From Candidatus Poribacteria bacterium (lineage in GTDB: Bacteria; Poribacteria; DTPJ01; WJIO01), in contig WJIO01000361.1 in NCBI GenBank assembly GCA_014730235.1, positions 1 through 12,475 of the forward strand: a stretch of DNA of 12,475 nt, read 5' to 3'. The notes under the pieces are model-generated. The model saw only the letters and a program-made list of their open reading frames with translations. It was not told the DNA's origin and made no database searches. Shown piece by piece: positions 501 through 12,475 of this stretch (the stretch's first letter is position 1; the number at the start of each line of letters is the position of its first letter). A program made the position numbers and the translations under genes.

Positions 501-1904
501 ATGACTGATAAACGCCCGAATATACTCCTTTATACAACAGATCAGCAACGAGGTGACCATATAAGTATTTCAGGGCATCCGGTAATCGAAACACCTAACG
601 TTGACTCCTTTGTAAACCGGGGAGCTTATTTCCCCAACGCCTATACTGAAATTCCATCCACCACCGGTGCCCGTAGATGTCTGCATGCAGGGCAGGGAAG
701 CTACGATTGCGGGTTGGTAGGATATGCGGCTGCTGAGTGGAACGAACCAAACATCCTGGCCCAGGTCTTGGCTGATAATGGTTATCACTGCATCAACGTA
801 GGATGGCGTAACATGCACCCGCGACGTAAGCTGTTCGGCTTTCATAACGTTATATGTCATGATCTGCATGAAGGCGAAGACGACTACTGGGACTGGCTTA
901 AAGAAAAATTGGGCCCTGAGGTATTGGAACGCGGGCATGGTTGTGATGCTAACGGCTGGTTAACCCGACCCTGGCATCTGGAAGAAAGGTATCATCCCAC
1001 CAACTGGACAAACGATGTTTCCATTGATCAGCTAAAAAAACGTGATCCTACACGCCCTTTTTTCATCTGGGTTTCTCACCTGCGACCTCATTCTCCCTAC
1101 GATCCTCCCCAATTCTTCTGGGATATGTATATCAATCGGGAACTCCCTGAAATACCTGTGGGCGATTGGGCATCAGAGCACGATATACCCGGTCCCGGCC
1201 TGGACATGACAGCCTGGAGAGGTCGTTTGACACCAGAACAAAATCAGCGCATGAGAGCCGCATATATGGGACTTTGCTCCCATCTTGATTATGATTTGGG
1301 TCGTCTAATGCAGGAAATGCAGAGATCGTTGGGTGTAATGAATAACACTATGGTTATTTTCACATCGGATCACGGCGATATGATGGGTGATCATCACCTT
1401 CACCGTAAGACATATGCATACGAAGGCTCAGCAAGAATTCCCTTTGTGGTGCGTTATCCTGCTGGTTTGAATCTCCCCACAGGCACTTTTGAGCATGTAG
1501 TGGGTTTGCAGGATGTTATGCCTACTATACTGGATGCTATTGGTATAGATATACCCGATTCGGTCACAGGTAAAAGCGTTTTAAAAGCTGTTAAGGGGGA
1601 AGAATGGCGGAAATTCATACATGGTGAACATTCTCCATGCTATTCAGCCGATGAGGCCATGCACTATCTGACTGACGGTAGAGAAAAATATATATATTTC
1701 CCCAAAAGCGGAGATGAGCAATTCTTTGACATGAGGGAGAACCGTCTGGAACTGCATAACCTGGTAGGAAAATCGGAATTTGAAGAACGTGTATCCCTCT
1801 GGCGTAAACGCTTGATTAAAATCCTTGGTGATCGAGGTGATGGATTCTCTGACGGGGAAAAACTGCTGAGGAAAGATAGCTGGAGCGCAATTGTAAGTAA
1901 GTAG
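501..1904 (+). CDS. Sulfatase-family (alkaline phosphatase superfamily) hydrolase, Thr at the formylglycine position
   Basis: A 467-residue protein of the sulfatase/alkaline phosphatase fold. Metal-site motifs are present: D14-Q15 in NILLYTTDQQRGD near the N-terminus and D290-H291 in the SDHGDMMGDHHLHRK segment, with K303 nearby. Histidines in VSHLRPHSPYDPP (about 193 and 197) fit the substrate-side motif, and a C-terminal subdomain ends in an FFDMREN...ELHNL segment typical of these enzymes. The nucleophile region reads PSTTGARRC (52-60). Aligned on the conserved Arg (R58) of C-x-P-x-R, the position normally converted to formylglycine is Thr54 and the Pro is Gly. A classical formylglycine sulfatase is therefore unlikely; a phosphodiesterase or phosphomonoesterase-like activity is possible. 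There is no signal peptide, so it is probably cytoplasmic. The start is supported by AAAGGA at 488-493, 7 nt before the ATG. Confidence 0.85.
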   Translation: MTDKRPNILLYTTDQQRGDHISISGHPVIETPNVDSFVNRGAYFPNAYTEIPSTTGARRCLHAGQGSYDCGLVGYAAAEWNEPNILAQVLADNGYHCINVGWRNMHPRRKLFGFHNVICHDLHEGEDDYWDWLKEKLGPEVLERGHGCDANGWLTRPWHLEERYHPTNWTNDVSIDQLKKRDPTRPFFIWVSHLRPHSPYDPPQFFWDMYINRELPEIPVGDWASEHDIPGPGLDMTAWRGRLTPEQNQRMRAAYMGLCSHLDYDLGRLMQEMQRSLGVMNNTMVIFTSDHGDMMGDHHLHRKTYAYEGSARIPFVVRYPAGLNLPTGTFEHVVGLQDVMPTILDAIGIDIPDSVTGKSVLKAVKGEEWRKFIHGEHSPCYSADEAMHYLTDGREKYIYFPKSGDEQFFDMRENRLELHNLVGKSEFEERVSLWRKRLIKILGDRGDGFSDGEKLLRKDSWSAIVSK

Positions 1905-4036: not shown

Positions 4037-4396
4037 TGGTGGAGGCGGCGGGAATCGAACCCGCGTCCGTTGATACATCCACAAAAGCTACTACATGCTT
4101 TTCCTGTGTTTAAATTTCGCTTACTGAGATTCCCACAGGCAGGATTCCCGGGAAACTAGCTCAAATAAAGTTTCACCTATTGACTCTTTGAGCAAAAGTC
4201 AACTGGTATATCCTGCTAATCGTCGCTCTTTCCTAACCCGCAGGCGAGGAAAGGAAGAACGTAGCCGTCGTTAATTACGCAGCTAGAGCCAATTCATTAT
4301 CGGCAATTAAAGTTTTTCCACCTTTTTTACGAGGCCGATGGAACCTCGGCATGCAACCATTGTTTCATCTATCCCCGTCGAAACCAGATCGCCCCC
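4037..4396 (-). ncRNA. ssrA: Transfer-messenger RNA (tmRNA)
   Basis: A one-piece tmRNA of about 360 nt that rescues stalled ribosomes together with SmpB. The 5' end GGGGGCGATCTGGTTTCGAC (read leftwards from 4396) and the 3' end, with its T-arm GGGTTCGATTCCC and encoded CCA (4037-4039), form the tRNA-like domain. GGGGGCG pairs with CGCCTCC as a 7-bp acceptor stem containing one G-U. The tag frame (4278-4322) reads GGKTLIADNELALAA, followed by TAA at 4275-4277. The ALAA ending is the usual protease degron, and the GKT start resembles the B. subtilis tag. The exact resume codon is uncertain: GGT is the best guess, but the upstream A-run makes it ambiguous. smpB lies upstream on the same strand with a mobile element between them. 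Confidence 0.97.
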
Positions 4397-4412: not shown

Positions 4413-4494
4413 TATTCCTGTTATTTAATATTCCTGAAATATATTATGTAATCGCTAAAAAAACAAGGATATACTTGCATAATTAATATTCTTT

Positions 4495-4614
4495 GGTTCT
4501 TCCGGGTTTAGTGTGGTCATAATTGAAAATGCCCTCAGCTTGCCATTCCTGCTTCCGCAGGAATGACAGCATAAGGAAGTTTCTTATCTTTACCACACCA
4601 AACCCGGAAGAATC
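4495..4614. mobile_element. Small palindromic element (MITE-like), copy 1, 120 bp
   Basis: A non-coding element with inverted ends (GGTTCTTCCGGGTTTAG... on the left, complement of GATTCTTCCGGGTTTGG... on the right). At its centre is CATTCCTGC-TTCC-GCAGGAATG. It is flanked by a perfect 8-bp direct repeat, TATTCTTT (4487-4494 and 4615-4622), which looks like a target-site duplication. It is an inverted copy of the element at 5599-5740 and lies between smpB and ssrA. There is no transposase in the window. The GGnTCTT ends and 8-bp duplication recall the ISL3 family; that link is from memory and unchecked. Confidence 0.8.
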
Positions 4615-4672
4615 TATTCTTTTTAATGATTACATTATAATAACTTTTTTGCAAAATTCAGTATTATTTTGA

Positions 4673-5137
4673 TTAATTTCTCTTAATGGCTGATTCCAAC
4701 TCTCTTCTTATTGTTTTCTTTTTGATGCTTTCTCGCTTATCGTATAAATGTTTTCCCCTCGCCAACGCAAGTTCTACCTTTGCAAAGTTTTTTTCGTTGA
4801 AATAAATACTAAGCGGGATCAAAGTCACTCCACTTTGATGAGTTTTACCGGACAATTTCCTGATCTCCCGCTTTTTCAGTAACAGCTTCCTTCGTCGTTT
4901 TGGATCATATCTCATGGAATTGCTGTGACTGTATTGGCTGATATGAACATCACATAAAAAGACTTCCCCATTTTCTATTTTCGCATAACTATCCTGAAGG
5001 CTGATTTTACCTTCTCTGAGAGACTTAACTTCGTTGCCTTCCAATGCAATACCAGCTTCGTAAGTGTCTATTATTTCATAATCATGACGTGCTTTTCTGT
5101 TTACCGCGACATTTTTAATTTCTCTTGTATTAGCCAA
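4673..5137 (-). CDS. smpB: SsrA-binding protein SmpB
   Basis: SmpB binds the tRNA-like domain of tmRNA and places it in the A site of stalled ribosomes. The chosen start gives 154 residues, normal for the family. Visible hallmarks are NRKARHDYEI near the N-terminus, the GIALEGNEVKSLREGKISLQDSY strand region, the YDPKRRRKLLL segment, and the basic tail ALARGKHLYDKRESIKKK...RREL that enters the mRNA channel. The start is TTG either way: the outermost one (5146) abuts AAGG with no spacing, while the TTG at 5137 has AAGG 9 nt upstream and gives an N-terminus MANTREIKNVAVNRKARHDY that fits the family better. It has its own promoter (5184-5212) and is followed by an element copy and then ssrA on the same strand. 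Confidence 0.95.
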   Translation of the reverse strand: MANTREIKNVAVNRKARHDYEIIDTYEAGIALEGNEVKSLREGKISLQDSYAKIENGEVFLCDVHISQYSHSNSMRYDPKRRRKLLLKKREIRKLSGKTHQSGVTLIPLSIYFNEKNFAKVELALARGKHLYDKRESIKKKTIRRELESAIKRN

Positions 5138-5183
5138 TTTAATCAACCTTGAGTTAAAAAGTTAAAAATAACACGCAATTATC

Positions 5184-5212
5184 ATTATATCACAAATAGG
5201 GTTATACGGCAA
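5184..5212 (-). promoter_or_regulatory. Sigma-A-type promoter of smpB
   Basis: Read leftwards, TTGCCG (5207-5212, 4/6 to consensus) and a perfect TATAAT (5184-5189) are separated by 17 nt. Transcription would start near 5177, about 40 nt before the smpB start codon. There are no other genes on this strand upstream within the window, so this is the likely smpB promoter. Confidence 0.6.
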
Positions 5213-5311
5213 GAAATTCAACTGATTCTCACCAAGCATAAATTTTACATCCCTGTGTTATTGCGAAGAACGGAGTAGCAAATAAAGTTTTTAGTCTGTA
5301 TCAAAATTTTT

Positions 5312-5473
5312 GGCTCATCCGGTTTAAGTGTGGAAGTGTAAAAGACATTGTCCAATTAAGAAAAAACATCCTCCATTTGTCATTCCTGCTTCAAGCTTTT
5401 TCAAAAAGCTTGAAGCAGGAATGACAAGCTGAGAAAATTTTCAAATTATTACCATACTCAAACCGGAAGAGCC
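5312..5473. mobile_element. Small palindromic element (MITE-like), copy 2, 162 bp
   Basis: A second copy of the element family. The ends are GGCTCATCCGGTTTAAG... and the complement of GGCTCTTCCGGTTTGAG.... The centre is a long hairpin at 5377-5427, 25 bp of perfect stem with a 1-nt centre (TTGTCATTCCTGCTTC... and its complement). Flanks are AAATTTTT (5304-5311) and AAAGTTTT (5474-5481), 7/8 identical. Its right arm aligns with the right arm of copy 3. The left arm is diverged and longer, so this copy is the oldest-looking or belongs to a subfamily. It lies in the divergent region between smpB and the glycosidase operon and contains no ORF. Confidence 0.75.
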
Positions 5474-5531
5474 AAAGTTTTCATGGACATAGATTTTATG
5501 CTTCGACTGATTCAAATATGATTTTAGCATC

Positions 5532-5560
5532 TTAACAGATGGATCATGTTATGGTATAAT
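5532..5560 (+). promoter_or_regulatory. Sigma-A-type promoter of the glycosidase operon
   Basis: TTAACA (5532-5537, 5/6 to consensus), a 17-nt spacer and a perfect TATAAT (5555-5560). Transcription would start near 5567, giving a leader of about 220 nt before the fucosidase start. That leader contains the whole of element copy 3 with its strong hairpin. This is the best promoter match on the + strand in the window. Confidence 0.7.
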
Positions 5561-5598
5561 ATCATAAACAAATTATATGGGCGAGATTAATGAATATA

Positions 5599-5740
5599 GG
5601 TTTTTCCGACTTGGGTGTGGTAAAGATAAGAAACTTCTTTATGCTGTCATTCCTGCTTCAAGCTTTTTTCAAAAAGCTTGAAGCAGGAATGGCAAGCTGA
5701 GGGCATTTTCAATTATGACCACACTAAACCAGGAAAAGCC
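5599..5740. mobile_element. Small palindromic element (MITE-like), copy 3, 142 bp
   Basis: The third copy, inverted relative to copy 1. Between the GTGTGG boxes and the hairpin the arms of copies 1 and 3 differ by about one base, but the outer 20 bp differ more. The central hairpin (5648-5691) is 44 nt, 21 bp of perfect stem with a TC centre, against 22 nt in copy 1; this accounts for the length difference. Flanks are TGAATATA (5591-5598) and GGAATATA (5741-5748), 7/8 identical. It sits between the operon promoter and the fucosidase start codon and so is probably transcribed as a folded leader. Confidence 0.8.
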
Positions 5741-5790
5741 GGAATATAAAGGAATTTAAAATTCAGATCATCTAGATCAGGAGTTAAATT

Positions 5791-7098
5791 ATGTTAGCAA
5801 AACCCACACCGCAACAGCTTGAATGGCAGGAATCGGAACTTACCATGTTCCTTCACTTTGGCGTCAATACCTTTACCGACCGGGAGTGGGGTGATGGCAC
5901 AGAAGATCCCATGATTTTTAATCCTACAGAATTGGATACAGATCAGTGGGTGGAAGTGGCTAAAGATGCTGGGTTTAAATATATGATAATTACAGCAAAG
6001 CACCATGACGGTTTCTGCTTGTTTCCCAGCAAATATACAGAACACTCGGTCAAGAATAGTCCCTGGAAGGATGGTAAAGGCGATGTGGTAAAAGAGCTTG
6101 CCCAATCCTGTCGTAAGAGGGACATGAAGTTGGGAATTTACCTTTCGCCCTGGGATCGCCACGAAAAAACTTACGGTGATTCACCGGCTTATAACCAATA
6201 TTTTAGAAATCAACTTACTGAACTTCTCACAAATTACGGTGAAATTTCTGAGGTCTGGTTTGATGGTGCCTGCGGGGAAGGCCCTAATGGAAAACGACAG
6301 GAATATGATTGGCAGAGCTATTATCAGGTAATCCGCGATCTTCAGCCAGATGCCCTTATCGCTATCTGTGGACCAGATATACGATGGGTAGGCAATGAAG
6401 ACGGTATTGCCAGGGAGACTGAATGGAGCGTTCAGGAAGCCTCGCCTGAAAGACACCCGGATACTAAAGGTAAGATCTGGTATCCTGCAGAATGCGATGT
6501 TTCCATCCGGCCCGGTTGGTTCTGGCACGCATCCCAGGATTCAAAGGTTAAACCCCTTGAGCATTTGATTGATATTTACTATAAATCTGTAGGAAGAAAT
6601 AGCGTTCTTTTATTAAACGTGCCGCCAAATGATAAGGGTTTATTTGCTGATCCTGATGTCCAAAGGCTAAAGGAATTTAGATCTGTTCTGGACCAGACCT
6701 TTGATGTAAATTTCGCAGAAGGTAAAGCGGTTCAAGCCAGCAGTGCCCATCCTGAGCATCCCGCGTCCAATTCTGTAGATGGAAATGGCAATACCTTCTG
6801 GATGACTGCCCAGAATCCACCAGGAGGAACTATTGAGATTGATCTTGGTGAACCTGTTATCTTCAATATAGCTATGGTGAAAGAATATATATCCCTCAGC
6901 CAGCGCGTAGAATCTTATTCCTGGGAGATATGGAAAGATGGTAACTGGATAAAACTTGCTGAAGGTACAACTATCGGACATAAAAAACTGGATCGTTTTA
7001 CTGATGTAACTACGAACAAAGTTAGATTGAATATAATTAAATCCCTGGCAACTCCTCTTATAAGATACGTGGGTCTCTATAAAGCACCATTGATTTAA
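5791..7098 (+). CDS. Alpha-L-fucosidase, GH29, with C-terminal discoidin-like domain
   Basis: A 435-residue retaining alpha-L-fucosidase that releases alpha-linked L-fucose. The GH29 barrel covers about 1-300: MFLHFGVNTFTDREWG, the AKHHDGFCLFPSKYT signature, LGIYLSPWD, and EVWFDGA with the catalytic nucleophile D158. The GNEDG...ETEW segment (202-211) resembles GH29 subfamily B, where its first Glu (here E203) would be the acid/base; this suggests activity on alpha-1,3/1,4-fucosyl (Lewis-type) linkages, an inference. Residues about 308-432 form a discoidin/F5-8-type-C (CBM32-like) domain with NSVDGNGNTFW and EIDLGEPV motifs. There is no signal peptide, so it is cytoplasmic. AGGAG (5779-5783) is 7 nt before the ATG. 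The next gene follows after 25 nt, so the two form an operon. Confidence 0.93.
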   Translation: MLAKPTPQQLEWQESELTMFLHFGVNTFTDREWGDGTEDPMIFNPTELDTDQWVEVAKDAGFKYMIITAKHHDGFCLFPSKYTEHSVKNSPWKDGKGDVVKELAQSCRKRDMKLGIYLSPWDRHEKTYGDSPAYNQYFRNQLTELLTNYGEISEVWFDGACGEGPNGKRQEYDWQSYYQVIRDLQPDALIAICGPDIRWVGNEDGIARETEWSVQEASPERHPDTKGKIWYPAECDVSIRPGWFWHASQDSKVKPLEHLIDIYYKSVGRNSVLLLNVPPNDKGLFADPDVQRLKEFRSVLDQTFDVNFAEGKAVQASSAHPEHPASNSVDGNGNTFWMTAQNPPGGTIEIDLGEPVIFNIAMVKEYISLSQRVESYSWEIWKDGNWIKLAEGTTIGHKKLDRFTDVTTNKVRLNIIKSLATPLIRYVGLYKAPLI

Positions 7099-11259: not shown

Positions 11260-12475
11260 ATGAATAATCCTAATATACTTTTGGTATCTCTGGAGACAAT
11301 AAGACGTGACCATCTACGCTGTCATGGATACCATAAAGATTTAGCACCTCATCTGGATCGACTGGCAAGAGATGGTGTTTACTGCACAGATGCCATAGCT
11401 AACTGCGGCTGGACTCTCCCGCAGAATATAACCTTGCATACAGGTTTATACCCCCTTACCCATGATCTCACGCTGTTGAGGGATCAGCATCCATTGAGTT
11501 CGTCTTTTACTCTACTTGCAGAACACTTAAAAGAGCACGGATACCGAACATTCGCCGGTGTAAACAGCAGTAACCCCTACAGTGCCCATGCAAGATATGG
11601 TTTTGACCGGGGATTTGATGAGCATAACCCGGGTGCTATCTATAATCAGCATATGGAATGGACGGAAGAATTCACTCTGAAAAGATTTGCTGAAAACCAT
11701 ACCGAAGCTCCGTGCTTTGTATATACCCATGTAAACGACACCCATGAACCCTGGGATGCGCCAGAACCCTGGAAAACCATGTGGGGTGATTCGTACCATA
11801 ATCAATACGAATCGGACATCAGTTACACAGACCACTATTTAGGCAGGATTTTTACAGGTCTTAAAGAGATAGGTATACTTGAAAACACCCTGATTGTAAT
11901 CGCTGGAGACCATGGAACGGAATTCTGGGAACATGGTTTTATCGAAAAGAAGGTAAACCTTTATAATGAAATACTGCATATTCCCATAATTTTCCACTGT
12001 CCATCATTGTTACCTTCAGGAATAGCTTTGAGTGGCTTAAGCGAATCGGCTCAGGTTACACCTACTATAGTTGATATAGCAGGCCTACCACCTATTCCCA
12101 AAGCACAGGGAAAAAGCCTTTTACCCCGGATTCAGGGTAAAGAATCCAGTGGTCTGGATTATGTTTGCAGCTATACACGTCATGAACACCAGGGAGAGGG
12201 TGGGCCTGTGCAGTTTGATCACTACTCCATACATACGCAACAATACAAATTCATACGTCTTGAGTTACATTCGGAACTGGAAGACCTGGCTCACGACTGG
12301 AAATACAGGATACAGGCCATTGCAATACGCTGCCGTATATCTCCTGATTCCCTGAAACCTGGTTCAGTCATGCGGGAATTATATGATCTGAAGCGAGATC
12401 CCGGTGAAGGTAATAACCTTATACCCAGGGAACAGTATGGGAAAATAGCAAAGGATCTGGAAGATAAGCTTGATA
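11260..12475 (+). CDS. Second sulfatase-family hydrolase (3' end beyond window)
   Basis: The frame is open to the window end, giving 405 complete codons of an alkaline-phosphatase-superfamily protein. It starts NILLVSLETIRRDHLRCHGY, where the usual metal-binding Asp of the DTLRxDHL motif is Glu (E12). The nucleophile region, CGWTLPQNITLHTGLYP, follows the 'WTLPSHxSLxTGLxP' pattern: Thr52 occupies the formylglycine position and Asn56 that of the usual Arg or His. Further motifs are HVNDTHEPW (about 157-165), the metal pair D217-H218 in IAGDHGTEFWEHGF, and IPIIFHCP; a LYDLKRDPGEGNNL segment near the window end is typical of the C-terminal subdomain. There is no signal peptide. AAAGGA at 11246-11251 is 8 nt before the ATG. 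It is probably co-transcribed with pckA. It is only remotely similar to the sulfatase-like gene at 501-1904. Confidence 0.85.
   Translation, partial: MNNPNILLVSLETIRRDHLRCHGYHKDLAPHLDRLARDGVYCTDAIANCGWTLPQNITLHTGLYPLTHDLTLLRDQHPLSSSFTLLAEHLKEHGYRTFAGVNSSNPYSAHARYGFDRGFDEHNPGAIYNQHMEWTEEFTLKRFAENHTEAPCFVYTHVNDTHEPWDAPEPWKTMWGDSYHNQYESDISYTDHYLGRIFTGLKEIGILENTLIVIAGDHGTEFWEHGFIEKKVNLYNEILHIPIIFHCPSLLPSGIALSGLSESAQVTPTIVDIAGLPPIPKAQGKSLLPRIQGKESSGLDYVCSYTRHEHQGEGGPVQFDHYSIHTQQYKFIRLELHSELEDLAHDWKYRIQAIAIRCRISPDSLKPGSVMRELYDLKRDPGEGNNLIPREQYGKIAKDLEDKLD

Follow-up and report, generated by a model that had tools for sequence, protein, structure and literature searches.

The window, the whole 12,475-nucleotide stretch that was analyzed, corresponds to contig 305 of a draft genome (5.53 Mb, 451 contigs) and carries three short palindromic elements, E1, E2 and E3, which lie between the tmRNA gene, smpB and an alpha-L-fucosidase gene (Table 1). 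All three belong to one abundant family of MITEs, here called F1. Its center is a REP of the CGTC-1 type, and it nests in two further MITE families (F2 and F3). We consider it likely that F1 is moved by ISL3 transposases and that recombination between REPs has yielded chimeras and arm mosaics. An initial sequence-only reading of the window had described three copies of 120, 162 and 142 bp, each with a GTGTGG box, a central hairpin and flanking 8-bp repeats matching at 8/8, 7/8 and 7/8 positions, and all of these features were borne out by the sequence. The inverted ends that it gave as GGnTnnTCC are present in all three elements as well, except that the right terminus of E1 (...GGAAGAATC) ends in TC, not CC. 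It did not note the F2 element around E1, the F3 element around E2, or the identity of the hairpin as a REP. As single strands, E1 and E3 fold more strongly than 200 of 200 shuffled sequences (z ~ -8). We also observed two sulfatase genes in the window (501-1904 and 11260-12474) near the GH29-like fucosidase gene, a clustering that suggests use of a sulfated polysaccharide.

Table 1. Positions and parts of the elements in the window and their neighboring genes, with example copies of F2 and F3 elsewhere (positions within the named locus).
Feature	Position	Strand	Description
tmRNA gene (ssrA)	4037-4396	minus	
ATTAT bordering the F2 host of E1	4443-4447 and 4634-4638		5-bp duplication
F2-type MITE enclosing E1	4448-4633		ends GTAATCGCTAAAAAA / ..TTTTTAATGATTAC
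E1 left target-site duplication	4487-4494		TATTCTTT; from sequence
E1	4495-4614	plus	F1-type MITE, 120 bp; left arm B, right arm A
E1 central REP hairpin	4541-4568		TGCCATTCCTGC-TTCC-GCAGGAATGACA
E1 right target-site duplication	4615-4622		TATTCTTT; from sequence; 8/8 vs left
smpB	4673-5146	minus	
F3-type MITE enclosing E2	5232-5505		ends CCAAGCATAAATTTTA / TAGATTTTATGCTTCG; duplication ~9 bp
E2 left flank	5304-5311		AAATTTTT
E2	5312-5473	plus	F1-type MITE, 162 bp; left arm C, right arm Bt (mosaic)
E2 central palindrome	5378-5426		TGTCATTCCTGCTTCAAGCTTTTTC..GGAATGACA, 49 bp
E2 right flank	5474-5481		AAAGTTTT; 7/8 vs left; common to many F3-embedded copies
E3 left target-site duplication	5591-5598		TGAATATA
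E3	5599-5740	plus	F1-type MITE, 142 bp; left arm A, right arm B
E3 central palindrome	5645-5694		~50 bp
E3 right target-site duplication	5741-5748		GGAATATA; 7/8 vs left
Alpha-L-fucosidase gene, GH29-like	5791-7098	plus	
F2 example	L111 807-932		
F3 example	L104 10002-10295		

A search of the host genome with the DNA of E3 returned many matches, and a pattern search of all 5.53 Mb identified 973 F1 ends with at most 3 mismatches. The reversed pattern, used as a control, gave 0 matches, and the F1 ends are therefore not due to chance. For all further statistics we used 80 stretches (0.86 Mb), of which 60 (contigs 1-60, 0.52 Mb) were unselected for content; extrapolating from the density in the unselected stretches, the genome holds ~370 full copies, making up ~1% of its length. 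The 0.86 Mb sample contained 74 paired elements of 62-244 bp, with inverted repeats of ~22 bp reading GGYTCTTCCGGGTTHAGTGTGG at their ends and no coding content, and with lengths that form a ladder near 120, 141, 164, 185 and 205 bp. Among the arm types, the combination A/B occurs in 54 of 76 copies, next to C/B, A/C and others. Outside this genome, the element found no match in plasmids, its end patterns none in viral contigs, its core pattern none in a public genome collection, and a 141-base F1 DNA query none in 38 relatives; within the phylum, however, 14 further genomes contain related ends with 1-2 mismatches.

When the copies were compared together with their flanks, perfect 8-bp repeats bordered 29 of the 74 paired elements and repeats of at least 7/8 bordered 39; random pairing of flanks gave 0.4% and 2.6%, respectively. 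This signal is exclusive to a length of 8 and an offset of 0, and is gone at 9 bp, at other lengths and at other offsets. Flank clustering showed that 23 of 76 copies share a repeated flank, chiefly that of F3, leaving 53 copies in unique contexts, 26 of which have perfect 8-bp duplications and 37 duplications of at least 7/8. The targets are A/T-rich (12% GC vs 39%), with a consensus near AAATTTTT, and long ORFs, despite a coverage of 85%, contain just 3 of the 76 copies. The constant duplication length in unique contexts, together with filled and empty paralogous sites (see below), confirms the earlier proposal that these elements transpose, while their length, 22-bp inverted ends, absence of coding content and constant-length target-site duplication identify them as MITEs, as had been suggested.

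The same flanks reveal that F1 elements are inserted into other MITEs. F2 is a second MITE family with inverted ends GTAATCGTTAAAAAATG and duplications of 5-6 bp, which usually has the same REP core. At locus L126, an intact F1 element interrupts an F2 element, with TCATTTTT flanking it on both sides, so that the filled site (..CATTTTT, F1, TCATTTTTTAACG) can be compared exactly with the empty site in the uninterrupted F2 element at L111 (..CATTTTTTAACG). F3, a third family, is an inverted repeat of greater length that ends in CCAAGCATAAATTTTA; 6 of 23 F3 pairs show a perfect 9-bp duplication. It frequently holds an F1 element inside, although copies free of F1 exist as well (L097 18857-19021 and L125 4167-4331). 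F3 copies appear to have multiplied while carrying F1. Since E2 lies inside F3 and its flank AAAGTTTT is common to many copies, its 7/8 duplication is not independent evidence: the AAATTTTT/AAAGTTTT flank was probably inherited from one ancestral insertion. Taken as a whole, these data provide an unusually clear case of MITE-in-MITE nesting in a bacterium.

At the center of the elements, the core TGTC-ATTCCTGC-GAAA-GCAGGAAT-(GACA or CCA) matches the published CGTC-1 REP, which is defined by a CGTC or TGTC tag, an 8-bp stem with AT first, a 4-base loop, a 3-base tail and the formation of inverted dimers (PMC3733652); tag, stem, loop, tail and inverted dimers are all found here. The core occurs as a monomer or an inverted dimer in both F1 and F2, and the length ladder of F1 results largely from dimers with CCAG..CTGG spacers and from an extra inner palindrome, TTCAAGCTTTTT..AAAAAGCTTGAA. 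To relate cores to arms, we scored the 64 intact palindromes with both edges in the unselected 0.52 Mb. A MITE arm was attached to 62 of them: 38 had F1 arms on both sides, 6 had F1 and F2, 4 had F2 on both sides, 3 joined an F1 or F2 arm to a fourth repeat, and 11 had one F1 or F2 arm and an unrecognizable other side; the other 2 had no arm at all. In other words, nearly every CGTC-type hairpin in this genome is the core of a MITE that belongs to either of two transposon families, and elements combining a half of each occur. The fourth repeat (..TTTGCTAGTGTCTCTTTAAGCACTGCAACATCTGGTTTTAGTTAATTTTAGAAATATCAG) was observed adjoining the REP core, directly or at a short distance, at L083 5288-5483, L114 ~1918 and L128 ~12293.

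Two of the chimeras (L103 11167-11369 and L078 6376-6620) retain an outer F2 end beside the F1 end, so F1 had already entered F2 when the segment separating the two REPs disappeared, which fits recombination or slippage between cores. Alternatively, the REP itself could be the mobile unit, inserted separately into F1 and F2 without recombination between the families. REPINs are mobile in other bacteria (PMC3116915), and both families contain the core in monomeric and in inverted-dimer form; nevertheless, we regard this alternative as rather unlikely, considering that only 2 of 64 cores lie outside a MITE and that independent insertion does not generate F1/F2 half-and-half elements. Moreover, the genome yielded a single Y1 transposase, which is of IS200-like size (146 aa) and has no REP palindrome next to it. 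A RAYT was rejected as the mover of the core on the same grounds, and neither a REP-flanked RAYT gene nor the GTAG tag of RAYT-mobilized REPINs was found in this genome. A 2013 survey came to the conclusion that CGTC REPs have no dedicated transposase, and raised the question of whether they are moved by others (PMC3733652). Returning to recombination between cores, we tentatively propose, at somewhat less than even chances, that CGTC-type REPs persist as the centers of IS-derived MITEs and cross between unrelated MITE families by palindrome recombination, with the hairpin acting as the core for arm exchange.

The symmetry of the hairpin was analyzed in 36 copies of the 24-bp-arm palindrome. 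Complementary changes on both arms were found at 13 positions, where ~0.1 are expected by chance; non-complementary changes on both arms were found at 0, and 9 positions had changed on one arm only. Several of the compensatory changes are transversions without single-change intermediates; compensatory changes have previously been noted in REPINs (PMC3116915). Arm-to-arm copying, through template switching in the hairpin, would account simply for this symmetry, and selection for RNA pairing could conceivably lie behind it as well. Covariation between the left and right outer ends was weak (z ~4), and conversion between these ends was set aside on that signal. The compensatory changes also bear on a functional explanation, in which the elements are hairpins with a regulatory role in RNA or DNA (as terminators, mRNA stabilizers or protein-binding sites) that were kept and spread for the benefit of the host, transposition being merely their origin. 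Such a role would suit the almost exclusively intergenic position, the strong folds and the neighboring ssrA, smpB and fucosidase genes. We nonetheless judge it unlikely: the intergenic position is explained by selection against insertion into genes, transversions without intermediates fit arm-to-arm copying equally well, and the copies are found in very diverse contexts.

The sequence-only reading had suggested that an ISL3-like transposase may move the elements. Here, the related ends, the 8-bp duplications and the presence of ISL3 fragments speak in its favor, but no complete element with exact GGYTCTTCCGGGTTHAGTGTGG ends accompanies them. In four plasmid-borne ISL3 elements with annotation, the ends read GGTTCATCCGG.. 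or GGYTCTTC.., and three of the four have perfect 8-bp duplications; ends GGTTCATCCGGCTAAAGCG.. and GGTTCATCCGGTAAATCG.. with such duplications are seen among the annotated elements. In the host genome, ISL3 transposase fragments are located at contig ends, one fragment terminating in GGTTCATCCGGTTAATGCGTAG, an end common to close ISL3 relatives in Bacteroidota MAGs. Compared with both the annotated elements and the host fragments, the F1 termini fit the GGYTC[AT]TC type, and the 8-bp duplication agrees with that of ISL3 elements; the host ISL3 end agrees with the F1 end at 15 of 22 positions, while the subterminal parts do not match. Relatives within the phylum contain longer non-coding elements that end in GGYTCTTCAGRGTTAAGTGTGG, share up to 20 of 22 terminal bases with F1 and lack the REP core; 5 of 9 are bordered by 8-bp duplications matching at 7/8 or better. 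In one of these genomes, an ISL3 gene fragment leads directly into an end 36/45 identical to such a non-coding element, a subterminal match that concerns these related elements rather than F1 itself; BLAST with this ISL3-adjoining end recovered GGYTCTTCAGRGTTAAGTGTGG-type elements in two genomes (E-values of 6e-7 and 1e-5). The GGYTCTTCAGRGTTAAGTGTGG-ended elements span ~270-1200 bp in G029, G004, G007 and G051 (L152-L171), which belong to other families of the phylum, and the copies listed for G004 are no more than ~60 bp away from a contig end, as is usual for multi-copy elements.

A full-length insertion sequence with identical ends and 8-bp duplications, which the earlier reading had proposed as a check, did not turn up: neither the draft genome (451 contigs) nor the phylum yielded a complete ISL3 element whose ends are exactly those of F1, widely spaced end pairs in the sampled part of the genome contained no full-length element with a perfect duplication, and a search of the host genome for the Zn-ribbon ISL3 domain gave nothing above the cut-off. 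Because no complete ISL3 element with the exact GGYTCTTCCGGGTTHAGTGTGG ends was found, we infer the mover from the chain that leads from F1 through the related elements to ISL3, which holds link by link without being closed. A complete element may be concealed by the breaks at repeats in the draft assembly. We also considered whether the same MITEs could be moved by another transposase family that makes 8-bp duplications, such as IS1595, given that IS1595 transposases are present in seven phylum genomes with related GGYTCTTCAGRGTTAAGTGTGG ends, several of which lack an ISL3 match (G004, G007, G029 and G051 among the genomes with related elements). However, no IS1595 copy in these relatives bears the ends, the host genome has zero IS1595 matches, and an ISL3 gene fragment does adjoin such an end. 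IS1595 was therefore discarded as the mover, and we consider a different transposase family unlikely.

Overall, the initial observation is real, and its first interpretation is supported in substance. In the scenario that we favor, F1 would most likely have been mobilized in trans by an ISL3-family DDE transposase, inserting into A/T-rich intergenic sites close to AAATTTTT and duplicating 8 bp. A REP hairpin (TGTC-ATTCCTGC-loop-GCAGGAAT-GACA), sometimes as an inverted dimer, forms the center of both F1 and F2. F1 copies enter F2 and F3 elements, and F3 appears to have multiplied with F1 inside. REP cores would then have recombined, or been miscopied from one to another, giving rise to F1/F2 half-and-half elements and to mosaics of F1 arms.

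Each of these components resembles a known system. ISL3 insertion sequences, such as the element on the Pseudodesulfovibrio profundus plasmid NZ_LT907976 and ISRta1-like and ISVa10-like elements, share GGYTC[AT]TC.. termini and 8-bp duplications with F1, whereas F1 is only 62-244 bp long, is non-coding and ends in GGYTCTTCCGGGTTHAGTGTGG. RUP, NEMIS, ERIC, Nezha and other bacterial MITEs (PMC3733652) are likewise short and non-coding, with inverted ends and many gene-adjacent copies, but differ from F1 in their ends and mover. TIMEs are also non-autonomous and generate mosaics, but are derived from Tn3 (PMC4133298). CGTC-1 REPs, including dRS3 of Neisseria (PMC3733652), have the same C/TGTC tag, stem, loop, tail and dimers and no associated transposase gene; those are mostly free-standing, while the REPs described here are the centers of two MITE families. 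Exchangeable arms around a REP core common to two MITE families were not found in the literature searched, and while the individual pieces are of known kinds, their combination seems, as far as that literature shows, to be undescribed. What is added here is the nesting of MITEs in MITEs within the window and a CGTC-type REP that centers two MITE families with arm exchange, an arrangement that offers a concrete and testable route by which CGTC REPs could spread.
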